A stretch of DNA of 64,000 nucleotides, from assembly GCA_903813345.2 (NCBI GenBank), contig CAIIXF020000011.1, positions 2,628,571 through 2,692,570 of the forward strand, given 5' to 3'. The stretch comes from Owenia fusiformis (taxonomy: Eukaryota; Annelida; Polychaeta; Sabellida; Oweniidae). Position 1 is the stretch's first letter. Every line of letters begins with the position of its first letter. The notes beneath the pieces were generated by a model. The model had not been told where the DNA came from. It did no database searches and saw only the letters and a list, made by a program, of their open reading frames with translations. Made by a program: the position numbers and the translations under genes. Below, piece after piece: positions 2,801 through 56,062 of this stretch.

Positions 2801-3440
2801 TAGGCAGCCAGTTTGAGGGAAGAATCAGAAAACAATATAATAATTGTGATCTACTCTAAAATTCTTTCAATTTGAGTATAATAATATTCTTACTTTGAAG
2901 AGATGGGTGAAATATTGTGAAATTCCCTATTAGGTGGCCATTTTGAATTTTCTGAGGATCAAATCAGAAAAACAATACCATTATTGTGATCTACTCTGCA
3001 ATGCCTTCAATTTGAGTGTAATATAGCCATATAGCCTTATTTTTGGAAGTGGTCGGGAAATTGTGAAATCCCAATTTAGACAGCCTTTGAATTTTCTTAA
3101 ATCTAAATCGGAAAAACAATACTTAACTTGAAATCTGTTTGAATTAATCTTTCATTTTAGCATTATAGAGCTATACATGAACTGAAAAAGATCTCAAAAC
3201 AAACGAAAATTCCAGTATTCCCGACCCCATACACATACCTAGGGGCCAGGCTGAAAAACTTTAAAGTGGTAGCCATCTCGAAAAATTTTTTTTTTGTTTA
3301 AAACAATTACCAATACACATCTTTTCACCAAATATGAAAAAAATTCATCCACTAGTATTTGAGTTGTTCAATGGATGGACTGGGGGCTCACTATATCCCT
3401 ACCAAACCTTGTTTGTTGGAATTAAGTTAACTGTCCCAAC
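2800..3440. repeat. Dispersed repeat, copy B (related to 1-655)
   Basis: About three diverged units matching copy A occur in direct orientation. They share 'gtgatctactct', 'caatttgagtataat' and a 'ggccattttgaatttt' block. The copy also keeps the terminal 'ctatatccctac' motif near 3400. Together the two copies bracket the 999-2380 element. Confidence 0.6.
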
Positions 3441-3989
3441 ACTACTGTCATATGGTTGGTTTAGACTGTTGAAGCTGACACAGGAGGGGAGTAGGAAGAC
3501 TGTTGTATTCATCGTCAATGTTCAGAAATTTCTAGACAGCAACAGAAGTCCAGCTGATCCCACAGAATGCTGTTTGACCCTCTTGCTCCGAAGTCAAAGT
3601 ATGCTGTCATCAAAACATCCTTTCAATAGGTCATTCAGTTGTTGCTTTTACAAAATCTGAAAAATGAGTAGTCAAGTATCAGAAGTCTGCAATTTTACAG
3701 TTTGAATCTTTCTGCTTAGATCTATCAAGTGGAAATGATTCAGGAAAAGGCCATCACAACAAAACAAACATGCACAGCACCTTCGATATGATTAACAGTT
3801 TTGGTGTGATTACCTTTTTCAATTGTATTTTGAAAGATTTGGTCCTGTCACCTTATCAGTGTTCTCAATGGCATTTCCATTGAGCCAAAGCATTCATTCT
3901 GGAGGTTGTTGACCATAATGCACCAAGATGAGATATTGCGTAGAAAATAAATTAGTCAGCATTTAGATCTGGGGTATCATTTCCATTAC
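3441..3989. other. No recognised feature
   Basis: Unique-looking sequence just upstream of the truncated LINE. Open frames here are short and show no recognisable domain. Confidence 0.4.
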
Positions 3990-6972: not shown

Positions 6973-7934
6973 AAGTATTTAGTAAGTCTTATATTATATG
7001 CAAAAGTTTGAAAATGTTTAAGTAAGTTTATTCATTACTTCAGAGAATATTTATCCCATTGTGACTTTCGACTAGTATCCCCTAGTCTTTTATATAATAT
7101 ATAGACCAGAGAGATGAACTTACATAGAACCACTTTGAAGAAGATTTTGGACAGATTTGGGAATACATGTACAATTTGATACCAGTTAGGAGAACTCGTA
7201 CCTAGACTGCGAGTTTTTTAAATATTTCGACTGAAGTGGGGCACCTGTGAATATTATATTGGACTTACTTATACTATACTTTGACCTGGGCCTATGCTCA
7301 TGCTGTACCTTATCAGGCCCGTAGCAAGGCCCCTCTTTCAAAATTATGCAGTTTTCACCAGTTCGAGCACCTTTTGCATGAAATTTTAGCCAAAACTGTC
7401 AAAAAGCTCCCCCTAGGCAAAAGCTCCCCATTGGTAAAACCCCTCCCATTTGTAAAAAGTGTCTACTGGCCTGCATATACCGAACAATCAACTGTCAAGC
7501 TTACTTTTTATAACATGGGAAATCCTCACTTCAGCAAGTCCAGCTGTGGCATTTATTTATGGTGAGCGCTGCATGCGATGATAAGGTAACAGAATTACAT
7601 GTATGTCTGACACAATTGGTGATGTTTGCTCTTGATGTTCCAACATGTTGTCATCCCATGGACTTTAGTCTAAAGGTCCGTTGACTTGTCATCCTTTCCT
7701 CTCAACTCAGCATAATTCTAAAAACACCTTCCGTCCGATTTGGAACTCTAAATTTTTAAATCTTTCACTTTCAGCCTCCTAGTATTCACATTGAAATGAA
7801 CAAGACACTTCTATATGTCTGTGATATGTAACTTAAGTTTCTACATATTTACTGATGTAGTATATACATCAAATATACGAGGTTTATTGAATCTAGGTCT
7901 AATCTAAAATATATTTTCTTTTTTCTTTCGAGAA
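6973..7934. other. No recognised feature
   Basis: No supported gene or repeat. Short open frames here show no domain or coding character. Confidence 0.4.
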
Positions 7935-7954
7935 CCGGTGTGAAAGTTTATACG

Positions 7955-8175
7955 GTCTCCTATTTTGAAAGTCCGATAGACTCTAACTCCTGGGTTTACA
8001 AGTCCTGGACTTTAAAATCTAGAATATATATTCCCACGGACTTCTAAACCTTAGTAATGAACGTCTTGGTTATGGGATTTATTGTCTCTTGTGGACTTGT
8101 AAACCTAGATTCAATTATCCATAAGATTTCAACCGGACTATCACACCTAAGATTTATAGTCTGGATATGCTACAG
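7955..8175. repeat. Left subterminal motif array of the Ginger element
   Basis: Several 'agtcc', 'ggact' and 'aagtcctggact' motifs are packed into 220 bp next to the left terminus, together with 'cctgggtttacaagtcc'. The matching right zone holds 'taaacccagg' and 'aagtcc' in inverted sense. Such clusters commonly bind transposase; here that is inference. Confidence 0.5.
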
Positions 8176-8389
8176 TTATCTTTAGGCCTGCGTCGCAAAA
8201 ACAAATAAACAAACCAACAAACAAATTACTAGTATGTCGCATTACACTTTTATTTGCGAATTGTTACGTCAGTTTCGTTTTTCGACGTCAGACGTACAGT
8301 ACAATTATATACTAATAATTATTACATCATTATTCGAGAGTTATTGGTGAAACTGTTTTAAGTTACAGCCATTTACGTTTTTTTTTTAA

Positions 8390-11300
8390 ATTTGTCCTTT
8401 TTTATTTTTAATCTTGTAGATCCCTGCCCTCTCCACCCCTGCAATTTCGAAGGGGCCAGTCCACGGCTTCTCAGTCTTGCCCCCCTTTCTGTCTTGTCTT
8501 CTTAAGTTGCGCATCAATACTAATGAACCTACTGCCAAATCCTGTAAAGTTATTACATTTATTTACTTCTTCTCCACGATTACCATTACATACCATTACA
8601 TATTTTATCAATTAATGTATTATTATTTCAAGCACTTATTAGGAGGTTTTCAATTATGTCCGTTATCAGTAGTTGCAAATCATATCGTGGAAGTCGATAA
8701 AATGTAAACATTGTTTTGGACCTCCTGTATGTGCACAAAAGTGAAATAGCTTTCAGTACCTTTTGTGGATTTCTTCTTTTGTCGTAATTTTTCTTCTGGC
8801 GATCTTGTGCTGTTTTGATGTTTGACAACACTTTAACCCCGATTGCATTCATTTTCTCCAGTTTTTGGTTTGTTGAAAGAACGACATCATGGTCAGAATC
8901 TTCCTCAGAATCATCAAGATCTTCATCACTATCGTGCTGCACTTCACTGGGCAGTGTTGCTTCTCTGTATGAAGGCGTCAAAAAGATTCGATATTAAATT
9001 TACAATTAATAACAGTAAGTTATTGAAGTGATAAGAATCTGTTACTGAAGCCGAACTCCGTTCAAAAAGATGAAGCTATAACAATATTATAGTTATGCAT
9101 ATTAACCAAGGTGAAGATATGTATTCCATTAAGACACAAACTCATTAAATATCAGCTCTGCATTGTGAATTGAAACCGGTTGAATCTAAATAACAGTTTG
9201 TATCCATTTCATTGTCAGTGCATGAGTATGGTATAAATTTTTATTTTGCATCTTATTTTGTATCTTATTAGTTATCATTGTTTTCCGTTCATTTAAAAGC
9301 TGCTGTATGTTAAGTGTAAAAAAGTACTTTCGCAACTTACTTTCCGTACATGAGGAAAAATGGTGTATATTTTGTGGAAGCGTGCTTGCTGGTATTGTAA
9401 GCAAAAACCAAACTGGGCAAAACCTCATCCCATTCTAATTCAGTTTCCTGGCCAGATTCCACGAAATCATCTGTTTCTGCTAAGGTTTTTACTTGCTTAA
9501 GTATCATAGTTTCCAGTGTCTGATTGAACCGTTCTTGAAAAAAAGAAAAAAACATGAACATATATCGCCAGTGTGAAGTCTATAAAAGCATATGAGCCTG
9601 TATAAAACGTGGACTAGTCAATACAGATGAACGAAAGGTTCTAAATAATGCCTTCACAAAACCACTTGATTAAACATTTTCTTTTGACAAACTGACGGTT
9701 TCCTTCAATCAAAAGTTTGGAGTTAAAAAGTTACTTGATCGCATTTTATAGCTACCATGGTTCCAATGTTTACTGTATAATAATTTTGAATAATTTACAA
9801 GTGTGAACGCTTATATAAGTATCCCATTAATGTTGACCAATACACATACATGGCGATATCAAATAGAATTTACCTGTCAATCCATTACACTGGGGATGAT
9901 ATGCGGTTGTCCTTCTGTGGTCAACATCCAGAAGAAGGCATATCGAATCCAACAACTGGTTATTGAATTCGCGTCCTTGATCTGATATTAGCTTTTCTGC
10001 AAATCCAAGTCTGAAAGAGATTAAATACAGAATATCACATCATTTTGAGTGATATCATTTTTATCACCGAGTTGATATCTACGGGGCGATGAAATAATAT
10101 CATGAGAAATGATTTGATATTGGGTTTATCCCATGATTACAATCATGAATTAAAAAAAAATCAAAAATCAATAAAATTCGTTTATCACACGGATATGCGT
10201 GTAATAAACGATATCAATTCTTTTATTACACGGATATGCGTGTGATAAATGATATCACACGCTTATGAGTTTGATAAACCATTTTCTGGGAAATATCCCA
10301 CGGATTTAAATAATATCAGAAATAGCAATAGCTGTTATTGTACAGATAACATATTAATCATGGGATAAATAAGGGTTATGTCCTGGGAGGTTTTGATATA
10401 GGGTATATCCTGAGGGATATATTTATATCTCCCCGAGGGACCGAAGGGACCAAGGGGAGATATGGATATTTCCCGAGGGATAACCCTTATATCCAAAACC
10501 GACCGTACAAAACTGGTGTATCTCATACTTGAGTAGGGTTTTTGAAGTGTTTTCATTTTCAGTAGAGAAAATTCTCAACATCGATTTGGTTTTCGAATCT
10601 TACGTTTATCACTCATTTTCGTGTCTATTATCCATTTTTTTTATTTTTACAGAATCTCACTCGACTTTTCAGATTAATTGGCCTGAAGAAGTCCCACGAA
10701 AAAAGAACAATTATATTGAAAAAATTCCCGGGAGCGGAATGGATATGTACGTTAATTATATCTCCCCGAATTTGGCCTGGAGCGGGACATATACAATACA
10801 TCCTACCCGCTCCTCAGATACGATATATATTCCCATGTGATATCTACCCCATACCCACTCAAGTATGAGATACAAGGAATTATCTCATGGTTGCAAGGAT
10901 ATAGATTTTATGGTTTTAATGTGCTAATATATTTTATTGGTGATATTTTATTGTTCTGAAAATTAATGTTAATAAATCTAGTTAAAATTGAACCGATAGT
11001 TCAATTTTCGCTGTGTAATAAGTTCTAATGGGATAATCGAACAATCTTCTGGTTTTTCAAAAAGATCAATTACAAGCATATTGCCTCATGGATGTCACCA
11101 TCATAACCTTCTCTGTGCTCAATCGTGATACCACACACGAATATATAAAGGATATTTTTTCAAGATCTCAAGCAATAATCAATAACGCTTTCCATACATT
11201 TATTAATTATTCTTTAATCAACAAACCTTGTATCATACCAATAATACACTTGATATAAGACAGATTAGAATATGTTTGCATACCTTAGAAACATTGAGCA

Positions 11301-13659
11301 AAGAACTTTCGCTACCGACACCGCTGTTTTGTCACCTATGGGTGCTGCCTCGGCCCATTTAGAATAATAGCAGGTAGTAGTACAAATATACGCATTGTTT
11401 CTCTGGGTTTTTTGTAATGGGCCAATAAGGTCAATGCCAATCTAAATGAAGTAACATATTGTAAAGAATTTGTTTGATTTCATGTTTTTTTAATCTATTT
11501 CAAACCAAACATTTTAATTTAGGGAAGAAGTTTACATTGTCTGAGTAGACTATTCTTAAGTATGTAGACAAGTACCATTAATCAAAACGAAAATGCAAGG
11601 AGAAAAACACAAAAGCATCTTAATCTATGCTGTTTGTCAAAAACAAAGCATTACTTGTACGGCTTAATCTTAAAACCCAACAAAAGAGCTGGCTTAAGTA
11701 GATACTTACACAGCTCCATGGTACTGCCTTTTTCACGGCTATCGGATGCAGCTCAGGGCTAACCATTTTACCCTTTTTGTTGACCCTCTGGCAACGTTCA
11801 CATTTCTTAAGATACTCAAAGACATATTTGGTCATATTGGGCCACCAATACCTTTTGCGTAGTTTATCCATGGTCTTGTCCCGACCGAAGTGTCCCCCTG
11901 AAAATACAGGTAGCATCATTTATGTTAATTCTGTTTAAAATTGCATTTAATAAAATTGAAGTCCACAAAGCTTAATGCATGCGATTCAAGGTGATAGTTT
12001 CGATGTCATTAACAGGAATATATTTACCAATAAGGAGTAATAAAATCGCTTAATTTTTTTTATAAAATATGCATCCTGACATAGCATGTAAATATTATCA
12101 TAGATTGTGAAAATGATAATCTTTCATTAAATATGTGTAATTAGAGGTGAATATTCAGAAATATATTCATGTTATTCTACCTTAATTACAATATGTATAC
12201 ATTAAATTACAATGTTTTCGAATTAATGTACATTTCAAATATCCCCTTTTATATTGCATTATTAGTTAATTGCAATATTAGTTTATGGCATTATTTATTG
12301 CTAACCTATGCTTGAAGAATGGCACTCAACCATTGCTGCCTCTCTATGTTCTTCACTCTCAAGAACTTTGGTCCAATGTAACTCATCAGATTTAGTACAA
12401 ACTTTGTGCATGAGCACCCCCCTTTCAATCTGAAAATAGCATAATGGAATACAAAAATATTAGCTACTGAATCTGAACGGTGTTTGGGTCTGAAACTACC
12501 ATAATGTGAATGGCCCTGGAGTTTGAGACAACCGAAATGCGGATGGTGCAGCTATAGACCCAAACTCCATTAATGTGTGGATGTGCCATAATGTGTATGG
12601 TGCTATCGCAGTTATAATTACCCTTTGATAACTTTTCAATCTCTAATATACGTTATTTAAAGTACGATGTAATAATTCTTTTCTCTCCAATAAAACGGAG
12701 GAACAACATAACATAACATAACATAACATAACATAACAACATACGTGAACAAAATACGAAAAGTATGTGATTTAAGGTTGTTCTGTATGATAGAAATTTT
12801 TATGCAGACCTCCATAGAGTCACATGTTATTTTTTAAACATCGACCACGCCTTCCCAACATTGTCTACATCTTTGAGTTTTGTACAAAGAGTGCACTAAT
12901 GTATTTAGAAAAGACTGTAGAGAAGATTTTTTGATAAAATGTATAAAAAATGAGAAAATTCAGTTAGAAAATTCAGAAAATTTTCAGAAAATGTTCTCAT
13001 TGAATTTTCTAGTTTTTATACATTTTATCAAAAAAATCTTCTCGACAGTCTTTTCTAGGTACATTAGTGCACTCTGTGCAAAACTGAAAGATGTGGACAA
13101 TGTTGGGAAGGCGTGATCGATATTTGAAAAATAACATGTGGATCTATGGAGGAGTGCATCAAAATTTCTATTATACAGAGTTACCTTAATAAAAATGTAT
13201 CCACATTTACAATGATGAATTGGTTATATGTGAAATTTCGGACGATTTAACCTGGGTCAAAAAGTCCAGGACATAAAAAATGATATTGACAAGGTCCACG
13301 TGGTTGTTTTTGGACGTTGTAATCTGAGGGGAAAGTCCAGGACTACTAAAAATGGATATAAACAAGGATAGATTGTCCATGTGTATGTTTTCGGACGTCG
13401 TAACCCGAGGGAAAAGTCTCGAGGACTACATTTGTGAACATATTTCAGGAGGAAGTGTCCTCATTGTGGCGTCGGACGTTATTATCTGGGTACGATTGAC
13501 TTTATAATGTGAATAAATTAACATTACCTTGAAATTTGTTGTCGAAGCTCTTCTTATAGCCCTCTTTCCATTCACTGTTGTACCTGGTGGATACGATTTT
13601 TGCCTGACATATTGATAAATAACATTTATGTCCAGTTGTGTTTTCATCTTGGCATCCAC
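8390..13659 (-). CDS. Intron-bearing integrase-like transposase (Ginger/GIN family), at least 8 exons
   Basis: Minus-strand exons, in order: up to 13659-13528, 12429-12306, 11897-11710, 11441-11284, 10010-9874, 9533-9341, 8964-8760 and 8541 to about 8390. Every junction has GT-AG borders and the phases agree from exon to exon. Exon 1 gives the N-terminal 'YPPGTTVNGKRAIRRAS' region. Exons 2-3 give the HHCC zinc-binding part ('GGHFGRDKT...CERC'). Exon 4 carries the first catalytic Asp ('IGIDLIGP') and exon 5 the second ('ISDQGREFNN'). The Glu lies across the exon 5/6 junction, 35 residues later, in 'GLT-ERFNQTLE'. Exons 7-8 give an acidic linker and the SH3-like tail ('VGSLVLMRNLRRQDRKGGK'). 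The usual DDE set is thus present. Exon 1 may begin at Met 13647, or an upstream exon may exist. The predicted length is roughly 420 residues. It appears nearly whole, with about one break. A domesticated GIN-like host gene is the alternative, but the TIR/CCGG ends favour a transposon. Confidence 0.82.
10370..10505. repeat. Palindrome with GAGGGACCGAAGGGACC core in a Ginger intron
   Basis: Arms containing 'gggataaataagggttat' and 'gagggataacccttatatcc' face a core, 'ccgagggaccgaagggacc' (about 10430-10452). It lies in the intron between exons at 11284 and 10010. Style and core resemble the palindromes at 41.7, 42.0, 47.06 and 47.57 kb. Confidence 0.65.
10514..10875. repeat. Short-TIR element adjoining the palindrome
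   Basis: GTATCTCATACTTGAGTAGGG near 10518 is mirrored by CCCACTCAAGTATGAGATAC near 10853. The interior includes 'tatctccccgaatttggcctgg'-like sequence. No coding region. It is probably a small non-autonomous inverted-repeat insertion in the intron. Confidence 0.6.
12705..12738. repeat. ACATA pentanucleotide microsatellite
   Basis: About seven head-to-tail copies of a 5-bp unit (acata) sit in the first intron of the Ginger gene, just before the foldback MITE. Confidence 0.9.
12772..13199. mobile_element. Foldback MITE flanked by TTAA, nested in Ginger intron 1
   Basis: Arms of about 190 bp run inward from TTAAGGTTG at 12772 and outward to TACCTTAA at 13199, with only a short spacer. Shared blocks include 'cacgccttcccaacattgt', 'gtgcactaatgta' and 'gattttttgataaaatg'. 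TTAA at both ends suggests a TTAA-targeting superfamily such as piggyBac or Kolobok, although the ends alone do not prove it. A partial relative occurs at 44345-44435, so the family is dispersed. Confidence 0.85.
13240..13500. repeat. Tandem AGTCCAGGAC-type units in Ginger intron 1
   Basis: Three diverged units of about 90-110 bp each contain 'aaagtcNaggac' and a 'ggacgtNgtaa' block. They resemble the subterminal arrays near both ends of the element and may be extended subterminal repeats. Confidence 0.55.
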
Positions 13660-13964
13660 TTTTCAAAGGAATAACATATACCACGTGCAACAATTTATAC
13701 CCAGGTTGGCCACGCTTAACTAAACATGTGAGTTTTTTAAATATGACATTTTCTTTAAAAAAGGGGTGTTGGGATACTTAAAAAAGTGTTTAACTGTATT
13801 GAGATTAAAAAAAAAATTGACTCACATAAGGAACGAACCACTATTCTCTCGGCCACTGGACCAAGTCGTAACTGATTTTGCCAAGAAAGGTGAGACGAAC
13901 AGACTCAACTTTTATTTATATTTATGCATAACTCTTTTAATATATGTAAAATGACGGTCTCTTT

Positions 13965-14195
13965 GACCTAGATATAAAAGTCCGGGACAATAAAATTGGG
14001 ATTAAATGTCCGGGACATTTTATTCTTTCACTGGTGTGGAAGGAATAGAAGTCCATTGGTGATTATAGTCCATGGTCTTATTAATATATAACAGTAGGAA
14101 TGACAGTCCTATTGAGACCATAAACACTGGGATTGACAATCCATAGGATGAATAAACCCAGGAAGCACGGTCCGTAGGACCGTGCTTCCTTGGGA
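13965..14195. repeat. Right subterminal array of the Ginger element with a perfect hairpin
   Basis: Multiple 'aagtcc', 'gtccgggaca' and 'tagtccat' motifs cluster here. Position 14160-14190 holds a near-perfect hairpin, AGGAAGCACGGTCC facing GGACCGTGCTTCCT. This mirrors the left array at 7955-8175. Confidence 0.55.
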
Positions 14196-14216
14196 CTACT
14201 ATTACTTTTACACCGG

Positions 14217-15690
14217 AACAAACAAAATTCCACAAAATTGCACTCACGTTAGTTGCCCTTCCACTTCCGGGTACGTACAGGGTAAGTCAATGAACCTGTC
14301 ATTGATTATTTATATTCTAACGGCTCTCATGACAATTAAAACCATTTTTCTTAAATTAAATGGTTTTAGATTAAGAAAATTATTCAAATTAATACTGTTT
14401 AAATTGCAAAATAGACAAGTACTTTGACAGGGCTTTGTTTGTTTTGTATAAAACGGCACAATATTGGTTTCTCACTCTGTATAGTTTAAGAGGTCAATAT
14501 GTCATGGTCAATTGTTCTAAAAATACAGCATCAAACATCACAAAAGTAAATACTTTTCCAAATAAGAATATAATCTTCAGCTGTGAATACATTTAAGTCT
14601 ACATTCTTCAGTTTTATAATGAGAAACATATGTTGAAAGTGATGGCACCAAGTTTTACTTTAAAATGACAAATCCGACGTCAAAACGGAATCAATATTTT
14701 TCACAAATTTTAAACATCATTTTCGAATAAAGTTTTATTATTTGTATTAACGTTTTATTTTAGAAAAAAATCGCTACAATATTTTAAAAAATATTGAAGA
14801 TACCACACGTGAAATTTGAGATTGATCTATAAAAAATTGACAAATTGTTACAGTTTTAAGCCAAAGAGTTACGCGACCAAAAATGGCGTAAAAATGAAAG
14901 CAAAACACGTCGTAGGGAATGCAGTCAATTTGCTTTCCTGATTTAAATGATAATATCTTGGTATATCCTCATTACATTTATTTCTAAAAATTGCATAATT
15001 TGAAACCCAAGAATAAATACAACAAATTGTGAAAATTTAAGACTCATTGAGAACGCACTTGTAAAACAAAAGCAAATCATATTCCTTGTTCACGTTATCC
15101 CAGAACGTCTATGATGACGCCATAAGCTCAAAAATGGCCATTTTTAAAAAGTGACTCACCTAACTTTGAGATTTACGGAAACTACATTGAAATGATCATA
15201 AATTCCCAATTCTTTCACATAAATTAAACCACATAAGGGAGTCAATATACAGAAAGTTTGAGGAAAAAACATCCAAAACTGTATGATCGTTACAGTTTTT
15301 GCTAAAATGTTGAAAAAATAAGATTTTTTTGTCCAAAAGAAGTTGATCGGCCGGCGCGATTTTTTTACCTCCAATTCTTTTCAATGTGTGATTTAATTTA
15401 ATTCATTCTATAGATCTAGATATAATCTACCATCCCACCAAATATCACAAAGATATGCAAGAATATGAATGCGCATGAGCCGTTCAACTTTTCATGTATA
15501 CACTGAATTTTTTCTTGAGAATGCCGTCATAGAATATAGTCCCGCGGAAGACCACTAACTTTTTTTTAATAATCACCGCTTTTGTGCCGTCGGCCTCCTA
15601 GCTGCTTTAATATGAGCCCTTAGTTTTTACTGTACCCAGTAACATGATAGAAGCCTTTATCTATGAGAAAATATTGGGATACCAGATCCC
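14217..15690. other. No recognised feature
   Basis: AT-rich sequence between the Ginger element and the region upstream of the fibrinogen-domain gene. I found no supported exon, RNA gene or inverted repeat. Confidence 0.4.
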
Positions 15691-27500: not shown

Positions 27501-28668
27501 AAGAGTATGATACATATACTAATTGGTAGAAATGTTTGTGTGTACACATTTTCATAAATGGTTGACATGTTTGCAAAAGCCAAAACCACTTACATATTAT
27601 CGCACGTGTTATGTCCTATATTCTTGTGCTGATCAGTGAGTGGGCAGGAAACCCGCTTATCTTAAAATGTAGCAGACTAGTGCCAGGATCTGTTTAGGAT
27701 TTGGATATGCTGGCTATATAATATGGCAGCCATTTTGAATTCTTTCATAAATCGACCATTTTGAATATTTTCATAAATCCTGTCATCAAAATTCCGTTCA
27801 ACTTGAAATTTTACAGATGCAAGAGCAGACTAGTTTCAAGATCTGATTAGGTTTTTGGCAGGCTGGCTAAATTATGTGGTTGGCATCTAATACATGATCC
27901 AAAATGCGAAACATATCACTGAGTGTCTTGTTATCCATCTAATGTTAAAAGAATACCATATCCATACCCTGTTCTTGAGAGAATTAATCATTAAAGCATC
28001 ACTTATGTTTAGGTACTACAGAACGACAAGGGAATACAGCCTGTATTACTGGCATTAATGGCAAGGTAGAGATTGAAACAACAGAAGACACAGTTGAAGC
28101 CCAATGTATCAATGGCTCGTTGGTGATCGCCAACAGGTTTGATGGTTCGGTCGATTTCAATAGAAATTGGACTGATTACAAAAGTGGATTTGGTCATGTA
28201 GACGGAGAATACTTCTTAGGCCTCAATAATATCAGATCCATTGTAACTAAGGGGAATTACACACTTCGTATTGAGCTAACTACTTGGCCAGATCAAGGTA
28301 GTGTTACCAAATATGCGGAGTATGATCATTTCAGCATAGGACCAGAGGATGATAACTTTAGACTTAGTATTGGAACTTATTCAGGAACCGCAGGTCATGG
28401 CTTGAGATACGATAATGGTGGTCAGTTTTCTACGAGAGATAAAGATAATGATGTTAATGGTTTCATATCGTGTGCCAAAGGGAGGTCGGGGGCATGGTGG
28501 TTCTCAGACTGCTCAATAACTAATATATTCGGACCTTATATGCCATCATCCAGATGCGTTGAGAGATTTAAATGCATAGTTTGGCAGAACTGGCCAACAT
28601 CGATTGGTGAGCCAGATAATTCGTACTACTCATTTAAAGAAATTAGGATGATGATGAGATTAGTTTAA
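18536..28668 (+). CDS. Secreted EGF / Cys-rich / mucin-like / fibrinogen-C-domain protein (FReD lectin type)
   Basis: Eight coding exons join in phase: 18536-18596, 19807-19860, 21173-21265, 21368-21406, 24194-24310, 26295-26490, 26608-26939 and 28013-28668. They total 1548 nt, or 515 residues. All junctions are GT-AG and nearly all are phase 1, typical of shuffled extracellular modules. Residues 1-20 form a signal peptide, and 21-38 a Thr-rich linker. Residues 39-69 are an EGF-like module with only four Cys, and 83-121 a full six-Cys EGF. Residues 122-220 are a Cys-rich module ending 'LWVAKGCRGEFCV', resembling DUF3011-like domains. Residues 225-297 are Ser/Thr/Pro repeats, likely O-glycosylated. 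Residues 298-515 are a fibrinogen C-terminal domain with the 'FDGSVDFNRNW' start, the calcium loop DKDND (440-444) and the Cys pair 451/464. FReDs of this kind are secreted sugar- or acetyl-group-binding lectins, often in immunity; the ligand here is unknown. More exons could exist. Confidence 0.88.
18814..19679. mobile_element. Tc1/mariner-like MITE with long inverted arms in intron 1
   Basis: The termini are CACTCCCCTCCATAAGTTTGG and its complement, flanked by TA on both sides (18812-18813 and 19680-19681). TA duplication and this TIR style are typical of Tc1/mariner. The arms extend inward about 270 bp with good similarity ('gaatttttatttact', 'cgaaaattgatgat'), so it is nearly a complete palindrome of 866 bp. 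No transposase. It lies in the first coding-region intron of the fibrinogen-domain gene. Confidence 0.85.
22450..23765 (-). mobile_element. Decayed antisense LINE fragment in an intron
   Basis: On the minus strand RT motifs appear in order: 'INVGVPQG' (about 23680), 'LGPLLFSIYINDLP', 'SADDTSLYD' (in place of YADD), then 'LQALESLHYRAACLASGAIHG', 'WNGLPPTIR' and the 'CPCGAAQQT' Cys motif. The C-terminal part ('DTFLYGDTNLS') matches the LINE at 52-58 kb in layout, so the two are related. At least one stop and several frame changes separate the pieces at 23649, 23306, 23009 and 22672. The endonuclease half is missing. It is an old insertion in the 21406-24194 intron. Confidence 0.88.
24495..25235. 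repeat. Large degenerate palindrome in an intron
   Basis: Outer arms share 'atcgatatggtgaact' (about 24515) and its complement (about 25210), with 'aaaacattctgNaaa' further in. Inner arms share 'aggtctctcaataat...caaagga' (about 24778) and the mirror near 24950. It looks like an old foldback element of about 740 bp, with no coding content. Confidence 0.65.
25365..25475. repeat. Second copy of the 15700-15835 dispersed repeat
   Basis: It shares 'ttttggcgtaaaa' and 'aaattcataa' blocks in order with 15700-15835. Located in the intron before the exon at 26295. Confidence 0.5.
26724..26939 (+). repeat. In-frame coding minisatellite (6-codon ATPGTS-type unit)
   Basis: The exon holds about twelve copies of an 18-bp unit and 12-bp or 15-bp variants, built from 'gctacaccaggtacatca'. 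They encode Ala-Thr-Pro-(Gly/Ala/Val/Asp)-Thr-Ser. The repeats keep frame, so copy number can vary without breaking the protein. This gives a mucin-like stalk between the Cys-rich module and the fibrinogen domain. Confidence 0.92.
27665..27890. repeat. Tandem duplication in the last intron
   Basis: 'gcagactagtNNcaNgatctg' followed by a 'ggctggctaNat' block occurs near 27669 and again near 27823, about 155 bp apart. Shorter repeats of 'ccattttgaatNNtttcataaat' lie between them. Function unknown. Confidence 0.6.
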
Positions 28669-41600: not shown

Positions 41601-41669
41601 TATTAACCTATTTTTGGTTTCCCGGTTATTTTTAAGCTAACATGTTTATCATGGATATCAGTTATTTCT

Positions 41670-42300
41670 GGTCAGGATTGAATATGTGTTTTATTCCTCG
41701 GAAAATATGATATTGCGCTCCCTTGGTCAATATCATATTGTCCCTCGGAATAAAACCCATATTCAATCCCTCCCAGTAAATAACATATATTTGGCTGACA
41801 GGATTCAATACGGGATCTGAAAGGGGATTTTGGCTGATCTGATACAGGATTTTTTGAATATCAATTCTATTCCCTGTTTATTTCCCAGGGAAAACATGTT
41901 ATAATGGAATAAATAGAGGTTATTCAATGGAAGGGATGGAATATGAATTCTATTCCGAGGGAAAATATGATATTGACCAAGGAAAATATAATATTGACCG
42001 AGGGCGATAGCCTGAGTGTCAATATGATATTTTCCAAGGCCCTTATCATATTTTCTCAAGGAAAAAATTCATATTCCATCACAACCATCAATAACCTATT
42101 TATTCTATAATAACTTTCTAAAATTAAACTGAAGAGAAATTACCGGGAATAGTTCTGATACGAAATCTGAGACGCAATTTTTGCTTATACAGGATTTTTG
42201 GTGATACGGGATCTGATACAGGATTTTTTGAATATCAATTCTATTCCCCGTTATTTTCCGGGGGAAAACATGTTATTATGGAATAATGCAAATAATACCA
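41670..42300. repeat. Compound palindromes with CCCTTGGTC / GACCGAGGG cores and a direct duplication
   Basis: One palindrome (41680-41790) has its centre at 'gcgctcccttggtc'. A second (41935-42080) centres on 'gaccgagggcgatagcctg'. Around them 'gatacaggattttttgaat' plus 'caattctattcc' occurs at about 41838 and 42208 as a direct repeat. No coding content. Confidence 0.7.
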
Positions 42301-52421: not shown

Positions 52422-55400
52422 TTATTTAATGAAATTCAAAACTGCCTTAAAGATTTTGGAATTGTTTTCATTTGTCAGATCTTTGTCGCCAAAAAGTAGG
52501 AAATTTGTCTTATTTTTTAATGTTTTGTATTTAGTAACATCTAAGTTTAGTTCATGTTTAACCACCGCTAGCGCATTTGTTTCTCTCAGAGGGCAGGACA
52601 AGAGTTTATGCTGTGCTGTCTCTCGAGCTCCACAGTCACAATATGGATCGTTAATGAAAGAGAAATTATGGTCAAAAAGATCGGATTTGAAATATCGATT
52701 TACTCTTATCTTATTTAGTACAATTTCTTCTTTTCTATCAAGATTCTGTATGTAGGAGGTTGAAATTGTAGGTTCGGTGTTTTTGGTGAGGTGATCGTTT
52801 AGTTGTTTTTTAAAAAGTGAGAAGCTGTTCGTTTCCTTGTGGTCTCTAGGAAGACGGTTCCACAAGGTTATCATTGAGCAAACTGTTCCCGTTTCCATTT
52901 TTTTACTAATTGAGGCTGGTAATTTGTAGTCGTTGGTTGTTCTAAGAACTCGCGTCTGAGGTGATTTATATCGTTCGAAAATCCGTTTAACGTAAGATGG
53001 TGCCGAATTGTTATGAATCTTGAACATAACGCGCAATTTATGTTCATCCCGTCTATTTTGAAGATTATCCCAATTTAATATTTCAAGGGTTTTTTCTGTG
53101 CTTGCTCCTTGCATAACACCAGAACAAATAACAGCTGCCCTATAATGTAGCTTGTCTAACTGGGCTAGGCTGGTAGCTGGAGCAGCGTCATAAATGATAT
53201 CACAATAGTCCAGATGTGACAGGATAAAGGAAGAGTAAATTTTTTCCAGGTGTTTGGAATTTAATCTATGCTTAAGTGCCATAAGTGGATTTAATAATTT
53301 TTGAACTTTACCTTCTAGATATTCAATATGGGTTTTGAAGGTTAACTTTTCATCAAGAATTAGACCGAGGTGCTTATGATGTTTAATTTGATCTATTGGA
53401 GTGTCGTTGAAAACAAACTTAGGATATGTTCTCTCAATTGGTCTATTTGTTTTAAAGATCAACTCGTGACTTTTTTGTGGTGCGAAAGTTAGTCCCCATT
53501 TCTGGGACCACATTTGGATATGAATTAAATCTTCTTGAAGAACTTGGCTATCTGTTTGGTGATTTATTGGGTCAACCGGACAAAAAAGTGACGTGTCATC
53601 CGCATAGATAAAACATTTAGAGTTTAGGTCGTCCGTTACGTCATTTAGATATAACAAAAAGAAAATCGGTCCCCATATTGAGCCTTGGGGGACTCCAGAG
53701 TTGATTTGACCGACTTTACTTGACCTAGAAAATTCATCATTGATCTTAAATTAAATTGTTCTGTTTGTGAGGTAACATTGAAAAAGGTCAATTAGTGATT
53801 TTGGGATACCGTAGGATTTGATTTTCTGAAGAAGGAGTGCATGAGGGACTTTGTCGAAGGCTGATTGAATGTCCAAAAATATTGCTCGAACATCGAGACC
53901 ATTTTCAAAATTTTGAAGAATGTAGTTTGTTATAGCAGTTAGTTGGAGTTGAGTGTTGTGTTCTTTAAGAAATCCAGATTGCATTTCATAAATTAGGTTA
54001 TTTGATGTCAAGTGGGTCATCAGTTTACAATTTACTATTTTTTCAAAAAGTTTAGACATTGTACAAAGTAAAGTTACAGGCCGATAATTTTTTATTAGAG
54101 ATTTGTCATCTTTTTTATGGATAGGACAAACAACTCCTTCTTTCCATTTTGAAGGAAAAGTCTTGGAAATGAGAATCGAATTAAAAAGTTTTGATAATGG
54201 AATGGCGAGGGAGTCACTTGCTAATTTTAACATTTCATTTGTGATTTGGTCATGTTCGGCTGATTTTCCACGTTTTAATTCCATAATACTTTCCACAATC
54301 ATTTGTGGAGAAATTTCAAATTCTTGCATATATAATTGGGTTCTGCTTGGAAAGGGCCTTTCCATCACAGTTATTTCATTGGAATATTTGGAAACAAAAT
54401 GTTCGAGAAACAGGTTAGCCTTACCTAGGTTGCTGTGTACTGGGGTATTTTTTTCGAGGTCAAACATTGCGGGGAAGGAATTGCAAAAACGTTTACCAAG
54501 GAGTTGTTTGATAAGCGACCAGTAAGATTTGGATGTAATTTCGGAACTGAGAACGCTTTCCGTAACATTATTATCGTAGTCAAGTTTTTTCTGTTTCACT
54601 AAATCGTTTACAACTAGCATTTGGGTTTTGTAAAGTTGATAATCAATTTCGTTTTTTGAAATTTTAAATTGTGCATAGAGTCTTTTTCGAACATTAATTT
54701 CATGTTTAATTGTGTCATCAAACCAAGGTCTATCCGATTCTCTTTTCCTCCTAGTTTTATTTGGTATGTGTTTCTGAAAAATGCTGAAAAGAATCTCAGT
54801 AAACTCGTTGACTTTTTGATCTATGTTAGCATTTCCTTCCGAAATATTTTGAAGGTGGGAGTTACAAATAGCTTCATTCAAAACAGTGCGATTTACTTTG
54901 TCATAATACCACTTAGTTCGCTTAGTTGACTGTTCCCTGGTTAGACCAGTAGTTAATCTCGTTAGAACACAACAATGATCTGAGTTACCGATAGGTGTGA
55001 GTACTTTAGTCACTTCGACTAGTCCCGGGGAATTACATATTGAAAGATCAATGCATGACATTGAAGTCGGTCTTATTCTGGTAGGCTCGGTAACAAGCTG
55101 ACTAAGTCCAAAATTAGTTATGAGGTTATAAAGTTGAGTACCCGCTGTATTATTAGCTGAATTGTGCTCGTTCCAGCTAAAGTGTTTGCTATTGTAATCG
55201 CCGTTTAAAAGTACAGCTGTAGGTTGTTTTCTTTGCACCGTTTCGATGTCCCTCGATAAAGAGGTGAAAAATTGGTTATTTTCATCAACACTCATATTAG
55301 GCGATTTATATGTCAGCGCGTAGAAAATAGTTTGATGATTCACACATAGTTCAAACCATATCGTTGCACAGTTGTGTTTTTTAGTGCCAAGATCCGGGCA

Positions 55401-56062
55401 TTTTTTAAAGAAAATATTGTTTTTATGTAGACCATCAATCCCCTCCCCTCACTTATGTATATTGGCGGGTGATAGTCAAAAATATCGTAATCCTTTTTGA
55501 TAGTTTCATTTGCAATTTGTCCAACCTCACATATACCAGCTACATGGACTTCGTTTAGGCGCATCTCATCTATTAAACATTCGAATCTTGTTGATTCGTC
55601 TGCCGTAATACTATTTATGTTTGACAGTAGGAATGTGATATTTTCGTGTCCAACCGGACCTGGGTTCGGTTGGATATCTCCGTGCATTAACATGAGATAT
55701 TTCAAATTTGGTACATATATCCACATCCCAAAACCAGGGCAAGCTAGTGTGAAAAATATGAAGCATAATAAGGCCCATGGAAATGTGATACAAAAACGCG
55801 GGTTAAAATGTTTGATATGTTTCAACAGAAACCTTGTGAAACATAAGAGTGGCAAGACGATCATCGAGAAATTGAATATAACAACCGCAAGAAGTAAAAT
55901 TATAATACTCGTAAACCCCTTATAAAACGTAGCAGCAAAAACAGCAATAACAATTAGAAAAACGAAGTAAATGTGAGCTGTAAAGTAACATGGTGACCGA
56001 TTTCTCACTACACGGTTCTTGTTCTTAGGAAGCCGAAAATTATTAAATAGCCCCACCCTCAT
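52422..56062 (-). CDS. LINE ORF2: membrane-spanning leader with 2A-like motif, APE endonuclease, reverse transcriptase
   Basis: Residues 28-110 of the first frame (56062-55340) are strongly hydrophobic, with about three membrane spans. At residues 128-136 comes GDIQPNPGP (nt 55681-55655), a 2A-like ribosome-skipping motif with Gln where viral 2A has Glu. Endonuclease motifs follow: 'LLSNINS', 'GICEVG', then in the next frame (55343-53751) 'NGDYNSKHFSWN' and 'GNSDHCCVL'. RT motifs are 'NYRPVTLLCTMSKLFEKI', 'IFLDIQSAFDKV', 'INSGVPQGSIWGP' and 'FIYADDTSLF', and the tail has 'CDCGARETAQHKLLSCP'. A one-base shift lies near 55360, and a TAA at 53751-53753 interrupts an otherwise continuous frame, likely from CAA. 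The whole would be about 1210 residues. If skipping works, the hydrophobic leader would be released from the catalytic part. Confidence 0.9.

Follow-up and report, generated by a model that had tools for sequence, protein, structure and literature searches.

An intron-rich, probable Ginger1 DNA transposon and its deletion derivatives in the genome of the annelid Owenia fusiformis

A stretch of 64,000 nucleotides from the annelid Owenia fusiformis (NCBI GenBank assembly GCA_903813345.2, contig CAIIXF020000011.1, positions 2,628,571 to 2,692,570 of the forward strand; hereafter the window, at its full length) carries a 6,274-bp unit, flanked on both sides by CCGG, that is very probably a cut-and-paste DNA transposon of the Ginger1 group; its gene of eight exons would splice into an integrase-like transposase. 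This assignment draws on the ends of the element, the duplication of its CCGG target site, an open spliced frame, copies found elsewhere in the genome, and a deletion derivative that lies at two different sites and hence moved in its shortened form. What appears to be new is a Ginger1 family with more introns than those tabulated in 2010 and without their usual protease domain; no title describing it was found among the papers listed, and an earlier record, for instance in Repbase, is possible.

Transposase gene and ends of the element

The gene occupies the minus strand, and the original prediction of eight exons with consistent phases and GT-AG borders was borne out: the exons (Table 1) join in frame to encode 426 amino acids and are separated by seven GT-AG introns of phases 0, 1, 0, 2, 1, 2 and 0, which measure, in gene order, 1098, 408, 268, 1273, 340, 376 and 218 bp. 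The HHCC zinc finger and the D-D-35-E core that had been read from the letters were likewise recovered by Pfam, which places Integrase_H2C2 (PF17921, E=3.4e-21) and rve (PF00665, E=1.8e-8) on the spliced protein, both above the curated cut-offs, and by a catalytic triad formed by D148, D207 and E243, the last two separated by 35 residues. The best relatives in the PDB are the foamy-virus integrase (3.2e-20) and the Ty3 integrase (5.2e-16). Exon 8 contains WTGPFEI, a GPY/F motif recognised by eye and without a profile; for the SH3-like tail of the original prediction, Pfam returned no SH3 match on the spliced protein, and the GPF motif alone was seen. The 32 open frames of at least 60 amino acids that overlap the element contain no reverse transcriptase and no Pfam domain above cut-off other than the transposase's own, two weak hits below it being DUF5592 (0.063) and Chromosome_seg (0.0069).

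The element begins with TGTGAAAGT at 7939, and its right end reads TGTAAAAGT inward, or ACTTTTACA in the forward letters up to 14212. Its 5′ ends, TGTGA and TGTAA, thus agree with the TGTNR pattern of Ginger1. Exact matches to CCGGTGTRAAAGT occur in the window at the two element ends only, and when up to two mismatches are allowed the count is three against 1.57 expected. The first 9 bp of the two ends are alike at 8/9 positions and the inverted repeat is degenerate beyond them, positions 50-60 being alike at 11/11. No long direct repeats of the kind that would mark a Ty3/Gypsy element with long terminal repeats are present at the ends. Fifteen occurrences of the pentamer AGTCC/GGACT were counted in both terminal stretches and an internal cluster taken together, as opposed to 1.65 expected, and none of 2,000 simulated sequences reaches this number, the stretches having been chosen after the repeats had been seen. 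The repeats are candidate transposase binding sites.

Copies, empty sites and deletion derivatives

The genome searched was the 498-Mb assembly of 525 contigs, in which the window lies on contig C11 (contigs are given below in this abbreviated form, and loci as L numbers). With the window included, there are 16 matching places for the left 302 bp and 20 for the right 353 bp. Both ends are present in six further copies (L029-L034), while in a seventh (L035) the right end is accompanied by only part of the left. The original prediction, which had placed CCGG at both outer edges and looked to other copies with the same termini, held on both counts: all seven two-ended copies, that of the window among them, have identical start and end points and are bordered by CCGG on either side, and their outer flanks differ.

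A CCGG on both sides of every copy might be part of the element itself. Eight flanks rejoined with a single CCGG were made, and two of them, those of the window (220 bp) and of L033, were searched genome-wide. The window query gave 21 rows, of which 17 cover nearly the full 220 bp (12 at 97-100% and five at 87-91% identity), a further one crosses the junction over positions 1-182, and the remaining three are the two halves of the window site itself and a fragment of 47 bp. At one of these empty sites, read letter by letter, a single position in 220 differs and there is one CCGG at the junction. The L033 query had 776 candidates, and each of the best 40, which were scored, crosses the junction with 97-99% identity. 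Empty sites with a single CCGG, the lack of which would have counted against a Ginger element, were thus found with both queries. Because they carry one CCGG, an origin of the second within the element is excluded; CCGG is a true 4-bp target-site duplication, and the element inserted in dispersed repeats. Elsewhere in the window, 41661-41790 and 41910-41982 show short matches of 73-82% to the repeat that L033 entered.

The window holds the sole copy found with exons 5 and 6 complete, and the other copies of the family are deletion derivatives. The 1,281-bp stretch of exons 5-7 is complete only in the window and has two partial matches elsewhere, in L030 (380 bp, 99%) and in a relative on C7 (81%); exon 3 is kept in L034 at 97% and partly in L032. 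In window coordinates the deletion junctions lie at 9139/13175 in L030, at 8448/11797 in L032, at 8509/8688 and 8732/11891 in L033, and at 8582/11136 and 13363/14177 in L034, the arrangement in L029 being more complex. L031 and L035 have a common junction, 8770/12194, and differ in their right flanks; the shortened form therefore moved after the deletion had arisen. At the junctions the BLAST pieces overlap by 1-8 bp, a rough measure that is compatible with microhomology.

The Kimura two-parameter distances of the seven copies L029-L035 to the window copy are 0.012-0.017. Private changes were counted in ungapped columns shared by the ends, 465 on the left (without L035) and 724 on the right (without L034). 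The window copy has 14, as compared with 3 in L029, 4 in L031, 9 in L033 and 13 each in L030 and L032; one end only could be counted for L034 (26, left part) and L035 (5, right part). These counts do not make the window copy the youngest; two deletion derivatives look younger. The original prediction that the copy had moved recently thus stands only in a relative sense, its 14 changes in the 1,189 columns being set against 3 and 4 in those two derivatives. The claim that it is close to intact holds apart from the C-terminus. Past the exon 8 stop of the window, all six copies that have this stretch (L029-L033 and L035; L034 is without it) read on for 15 codons ending in VNGCNLKQFHQ, followed by a stop in five of them and by none in L033. 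A second family of the same genome, described below, has a similar tail, VNGCKLKKVHR. The stop is therefore private to the window copy, and the tail that its protein has lost lies downstream of the GPF motif. The frame is otherwise open, which is weak evidence of selection, because the copies diverge by only about 1%.

As a separate observation, the left end of L034 (C5:22161227-22161510) is 88.8% identical to the window over 658 bp, while its interior is 97.8% identical over 2,234 bp, as if this end might have been exchanged with another relative. Among more distant relatives, L037 (the same locus as L016) has CCGG on both sides and L022 has it on the right; no end was recognised in L021, L023 or L025. 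Within L037 (C11:14097000-14105000, reverse strand, about 2,922-3,984), a Ginger relative of 864 bp lies directly at the CCGG with which a terminus resembling that of the second family ends, the letters at the junction being GTTGACA, CCGG and TGTGAAG. One Ginger here used as its target the CCGG bordering another.

Assignment to Ginger1 and its alternatives

In the original description, Ginger1 elements are defined by an H2C2 zinc finger, a DDE core, a GPY/F motif and a YPYY motif upstream of the finger; they have TGTNR 5′ ends, inverted repeats of about 40-270 bp and a length of 2.6-7 kb, and insert at CCGG or CCGT (CCGT/ACGG) (Bao, Kapitonov and Jurka, 2010, PMC2836005), with duplications of 4 bp (PMC10045372). 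Ginger elements have also been mentioned in bivalves, together with Gin genes (PMC10294476, PMC5753468). The present element resembles these published ones in its CCGG duplication (the second family also has CCGT beside an end), its TGTNR ends, H2C2 finger, DDE triad, GPY/F motif, GT-AG introns and length. The Ginger type first proposed can accordingly be specified as Ginger1. The element differs from them in having seven introns, whereas the 2010 table lists 0-4; in lacking the C-terminal OTU or Ulp1 domain that is usual in the group and present in 15 of its 16 tabulated families, Ginger1-1_BF being the exception (PMC2836005); and in its short, imperfect inverted repeats and its subterminal AGTCC repeats.

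Several observations weigh against this assignment, which was made from published traits and from comparisons within the genome. Over 60 bp the inverted repeats are alike at 33 positions, a value that one in 20,000 shuffles equals and that is poorer than the published repeats of 40-270 bp, and a gapped alignment of 248 bp scores 57, where controls average 38 and the best of 200 reaches 58. Exon 1 holds YP and a following F, but the last position of YPYY would be M or H. Neither the spliced protein nor the 32 open frames over the element contain an OTU or Ulp1 domain; in the genome-wide search, which was for OTU only, none of the 58 hits listed falls at a Ginger-like locus named here. The right-end flanks of older relatives are TCGG (L018), CCAG (L020), CCGC (L028) and CAGG (L039), and L024 combines CCGG at its left end with GTAC beside a right end that matches poorly; such variants may reflect either divergent targets or decay. 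The private stop in exon 8 is a further point of this kind.

One alternative is a domesticated, GIN-like host gene, that is, an immobile spliced integrase gene whose apparent ends are coincidental. GIN genes have six to eight introns according to the original description, three of them shared with Ginger1-5_HM (PMC2836005), and GIN2 has eight coding exons, the number found here (PMC3424704); the window gene is likewise multi-exonic, lacks an OTU/Ulp1 domain and is complete for exons 5-7 in a single copy. However, its ends are common to six other two-ended copies with target-site duplications, an empty site exists, all three catalytic residues are present, and the sole copy with these exons bears a private stop, unlike a conserved host gene. 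GIN1 and GIN2 are host genes of vertebrates that go back to Ginger1/GIN transposons; GIN2 occupies a conserved position, and whether its catalytic triad is conserved is reported as unclear. The malacostracan gene Imagin, also derived from Ginger1, shares the H2C2 finger, the integrase core and the multi-exon structure, but is described as a host gene that lost its DDE triad and has no inverted repeats (PMC12863088). We consider a host gene highly improbable.

A second alternative is a decayed fragment of a Ty3/Gypsy retrotransposon integrase. The window protein is clearly similar to 30 Gypsy-type integrases encoded in this genome (26-34% identity in the C-terminal part, 28-35% in the best whole-protein alignment), with which it shares a zinc finger, a catalytic core and a similar C-terminal region, and such proteins head the whole-protein search of the genome: all 98 rows scored, the best of 925 candidates, are long continuous frames, the window itself being absent because a spliced gene matches only piecewise. 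Searches exon by exon give a different picture, since the best matches beyond the element's own family are then short frames at other multi-exon loci. For exon 5, five such loci show 53-62% identity and four of them are the top four; for exon 6 they supply the top six rows; and for exon 3 the top rows lie on C7, C11, C7 and C253. A tree built from 168 C-terminal columns of the window protein, one relative (L074, of the second family) and the 30 integrases pairs the first two at 100/100, apart from the integrases, with long-branch warnings. The integrases lie in long continuous frames, 28 of the 30 with a reverse transcriptase (L042 and L050 show none within the stretch examined), whereas the element has seven introns and no reverse transcriptase or further Pfam domain above cut-off in its frames, and it forms a unit of 6.3 kb that is bounded by TGT..ACA and has non-autonomous derivatives. 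The closest matches, therefore, are not Gypsy polyproteins with a reverse transcriptase, and a Gypsy origin is very improbable. Note also that no relative was found in viral contigs, where none of 27 pattern matches was confirmed. Three of the integrases, L043, L051 and L053 (C1:24315019, C3:25608061 and C4:1383054), precede their reverse transcriptase, which reverses the usual Gypsy order, and L043 has a SCAN domain ahead of the integrase. A Gypsy group with the integrase in this position (Gmr1-like) is known.

The least probable alternative, to which we give almost no credence, is a Ginger2/Tdd element. Such elements likewise have a transposase with H2C2 and DDE, ends of the TGTNR type and duplications of 4 bp, but in the original description they prefer the AT-rich target RTATAY and are without GPY/F (PMC2836005), whereas here the target is CCGG in 7/7 copies and a GPF motif is present.

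Table 1. Features of the element in window coordinates, and related multi-exon loci in contig coordinates
Feature	Position	Strand	Remark
Left part of the dispersed host repeat hit by the insertion	7829..7938	.	110 bp examined
Left target-site copy, CCGG	7935..7938	.	Single in empty site
Ginger1 element (probable), 6,274 bp	7939..14212	-	Transposase gene on minus strand
Left end, imperfect inverted repeat (TGTGAAAGT...)	7939..7998	+	33/60 positions match other end
Left subterminal AGTCC/GGACT repeats	7970..8139	.	6 hits
Exon 8: GPF motif (PWTGPFEI), C-terminus	8386..8541	-	Stop private to window copy
Exon 7	8760..8964	-	Splicing
Exon 6: catalytic E243 (ERFNQTL)	9341..9533	-	Splicing, alignment
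Exon 5: second catalytic D, D207 (SDQGREF)	9874..10010	-	Splicing, alignment
Inverted-repeat element, 21-bp arms, in intron 4	10517..10874	.	Related sequence also adjoins copy L030
Exon 4: first catalytic D, D148 (IGIDLIGP)	11284..11441	-	Splicing, alignment
Exon 3: most of H2C2 zinc finger	11710..11897	-	Splicing, Pfam
Exon 2: start of zinc finger	12306..12429	-	Splicing
Long imperfect hairpin, intron 1	12772..13189	.	Also in copies L031-L035
Second AGTCC/GGACT cluster	13263..13427	.	4 hits
Exon 1: start codon, YP-containing motif	13528..13647	-	Splicing
Right subterminal AGTCC/GGACT repeats	13979..14197	.	5 hits
Right end, imperfect inverted repeat (TGTAAAAGT... inward)	14153..14212	-	Ends comparison
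Right target-site copy, CCGG	14213..14216	.	Flank comparison
Right part of the same dispersed host repeat	14217..14326	.	110 bp examined
Multi-exon relatives 1-3	C7:38956213-38968587; C11:4344548-4349361; C1:42299905-42301690		
Multi-exon relatives 4-6	C11:9238288-9242761; C253:23607-24610; C7:5761818-5763599		
Multi-exon relatives 7-9	C4:24629316-24631597; C9:138905-139803; C7:12422269-12423323		

Beyond the element, the window contains an endonuclease and a reverse transcriptase spread over two adjacent frames, as in a damaged non-LTR (non-long-terminal-repeat) retrotransposon (52425-55448, minus strand), and an open frame with a fibrinogen C-terminal domain (27988-28665, plus strand; Pfam E=2.9e-45). 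Elsewhere in the genome, open frames of 2,500-3,400 amino acids account for 33 of the 58 listed OTU hits (e.g., C500:34085, C6:36031621, C1:21111937 and C158:72929). Many of these frames are on small contigs, some contain two such hits, and they putatively represent a large repeated gene or element.

Intron-rich relatives and the origin of GIN introns

The single-exon searches identified nine further loci in which short open frames match at least two exons in gene order (Table 1). They were assigned by exon order and may include host genes as well as immobile or damaged copies; the weak exon 1 matches at C7:5761818 (E=0.86) and C4:24629316 (E=0.32) count by position only, and the weakest loci, such as C7:5763113 and C11:9239799, rank below long Gypsy-type frames. 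The first two loci, 99.8% alike over 3,958 bp, form the second family (family 2). The letters GTTGACA at the right end border on CCGG in one copy and on CCGT in the other, both of them published Ginger1 targets; the sole 5′ end seen is TGTCA, and the GPY/F motif is WVGPYTI. A left end of this family considered at L074:125 is probably no element end, because exon 5 lies there about 9.8 kb upstream of exon 6, as against 2.2 kb in the sister copy.

Exons 5 and 6 are both matched at five of the nine loci, in separate frames 0.2-9.8 kb apart, which means that these five loci are interrupted between the two exons. Introns 5-7 were compared by their splice letters at two loci. At L074, intron 5 (acceptor) and introns 6 and 7 stand at the same positions and in the same phases as in the window gene, and so do intron 5 (both sides) and intron 6 (donor) at the locus on C1. 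Over exons 6-8 the window and L074 proteins are 45% identical; introns shared at such a distance predate the divergence of the two. Mobile Ginger1 elements thus carry an intron-rich gene, which favours GIN introns that were inherited over ones newly gained. One paper on GIN genes leaves open whether the introns of these genes, GIN2 included, stem from the transposon or were acquired after domestication, and whether intron positions that are conserved point to one origin or two (PMC3424704).

How such an element might move can be outlined from its sequence. The transposase would bind both the TGT..ACA ends and, subterminally, the AGTCC repeats. It would attach the 3′ CA ends to a CCGG target, staggered by 4 bp, after which host repair would double the CCGG. 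The excision mechanism of Ginger was called unknown in the original description (PMC2836005); incomplete repair of the gap left by excision could yield internally deleted copies, which may then be mobilised in trans.

More broadly, we tentatively suggest, with slightly less than even confidence, that the eight-exon, protease-free layout is an old and stable state of mobile Ginger1 elements, retained through transposition in strongly diverged families, and that domesticated genes, GIN1 and GIN2 among them, owe most of their introns to it. If this were true, the introns common to GIN1 and GIN2 would be no evidence for a single domestication. The element described here is a transposon that moves as DNA with its seven introns in place, and its deletion derivatives agree with the gap repair of a cut-and-paste cycle. 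Together with the nine multi-exon Ginger1-like loci, two of them with shared introns checked by letters, the target-site duplications and the empty sites, it makes the source of the GIN introns directly testable.

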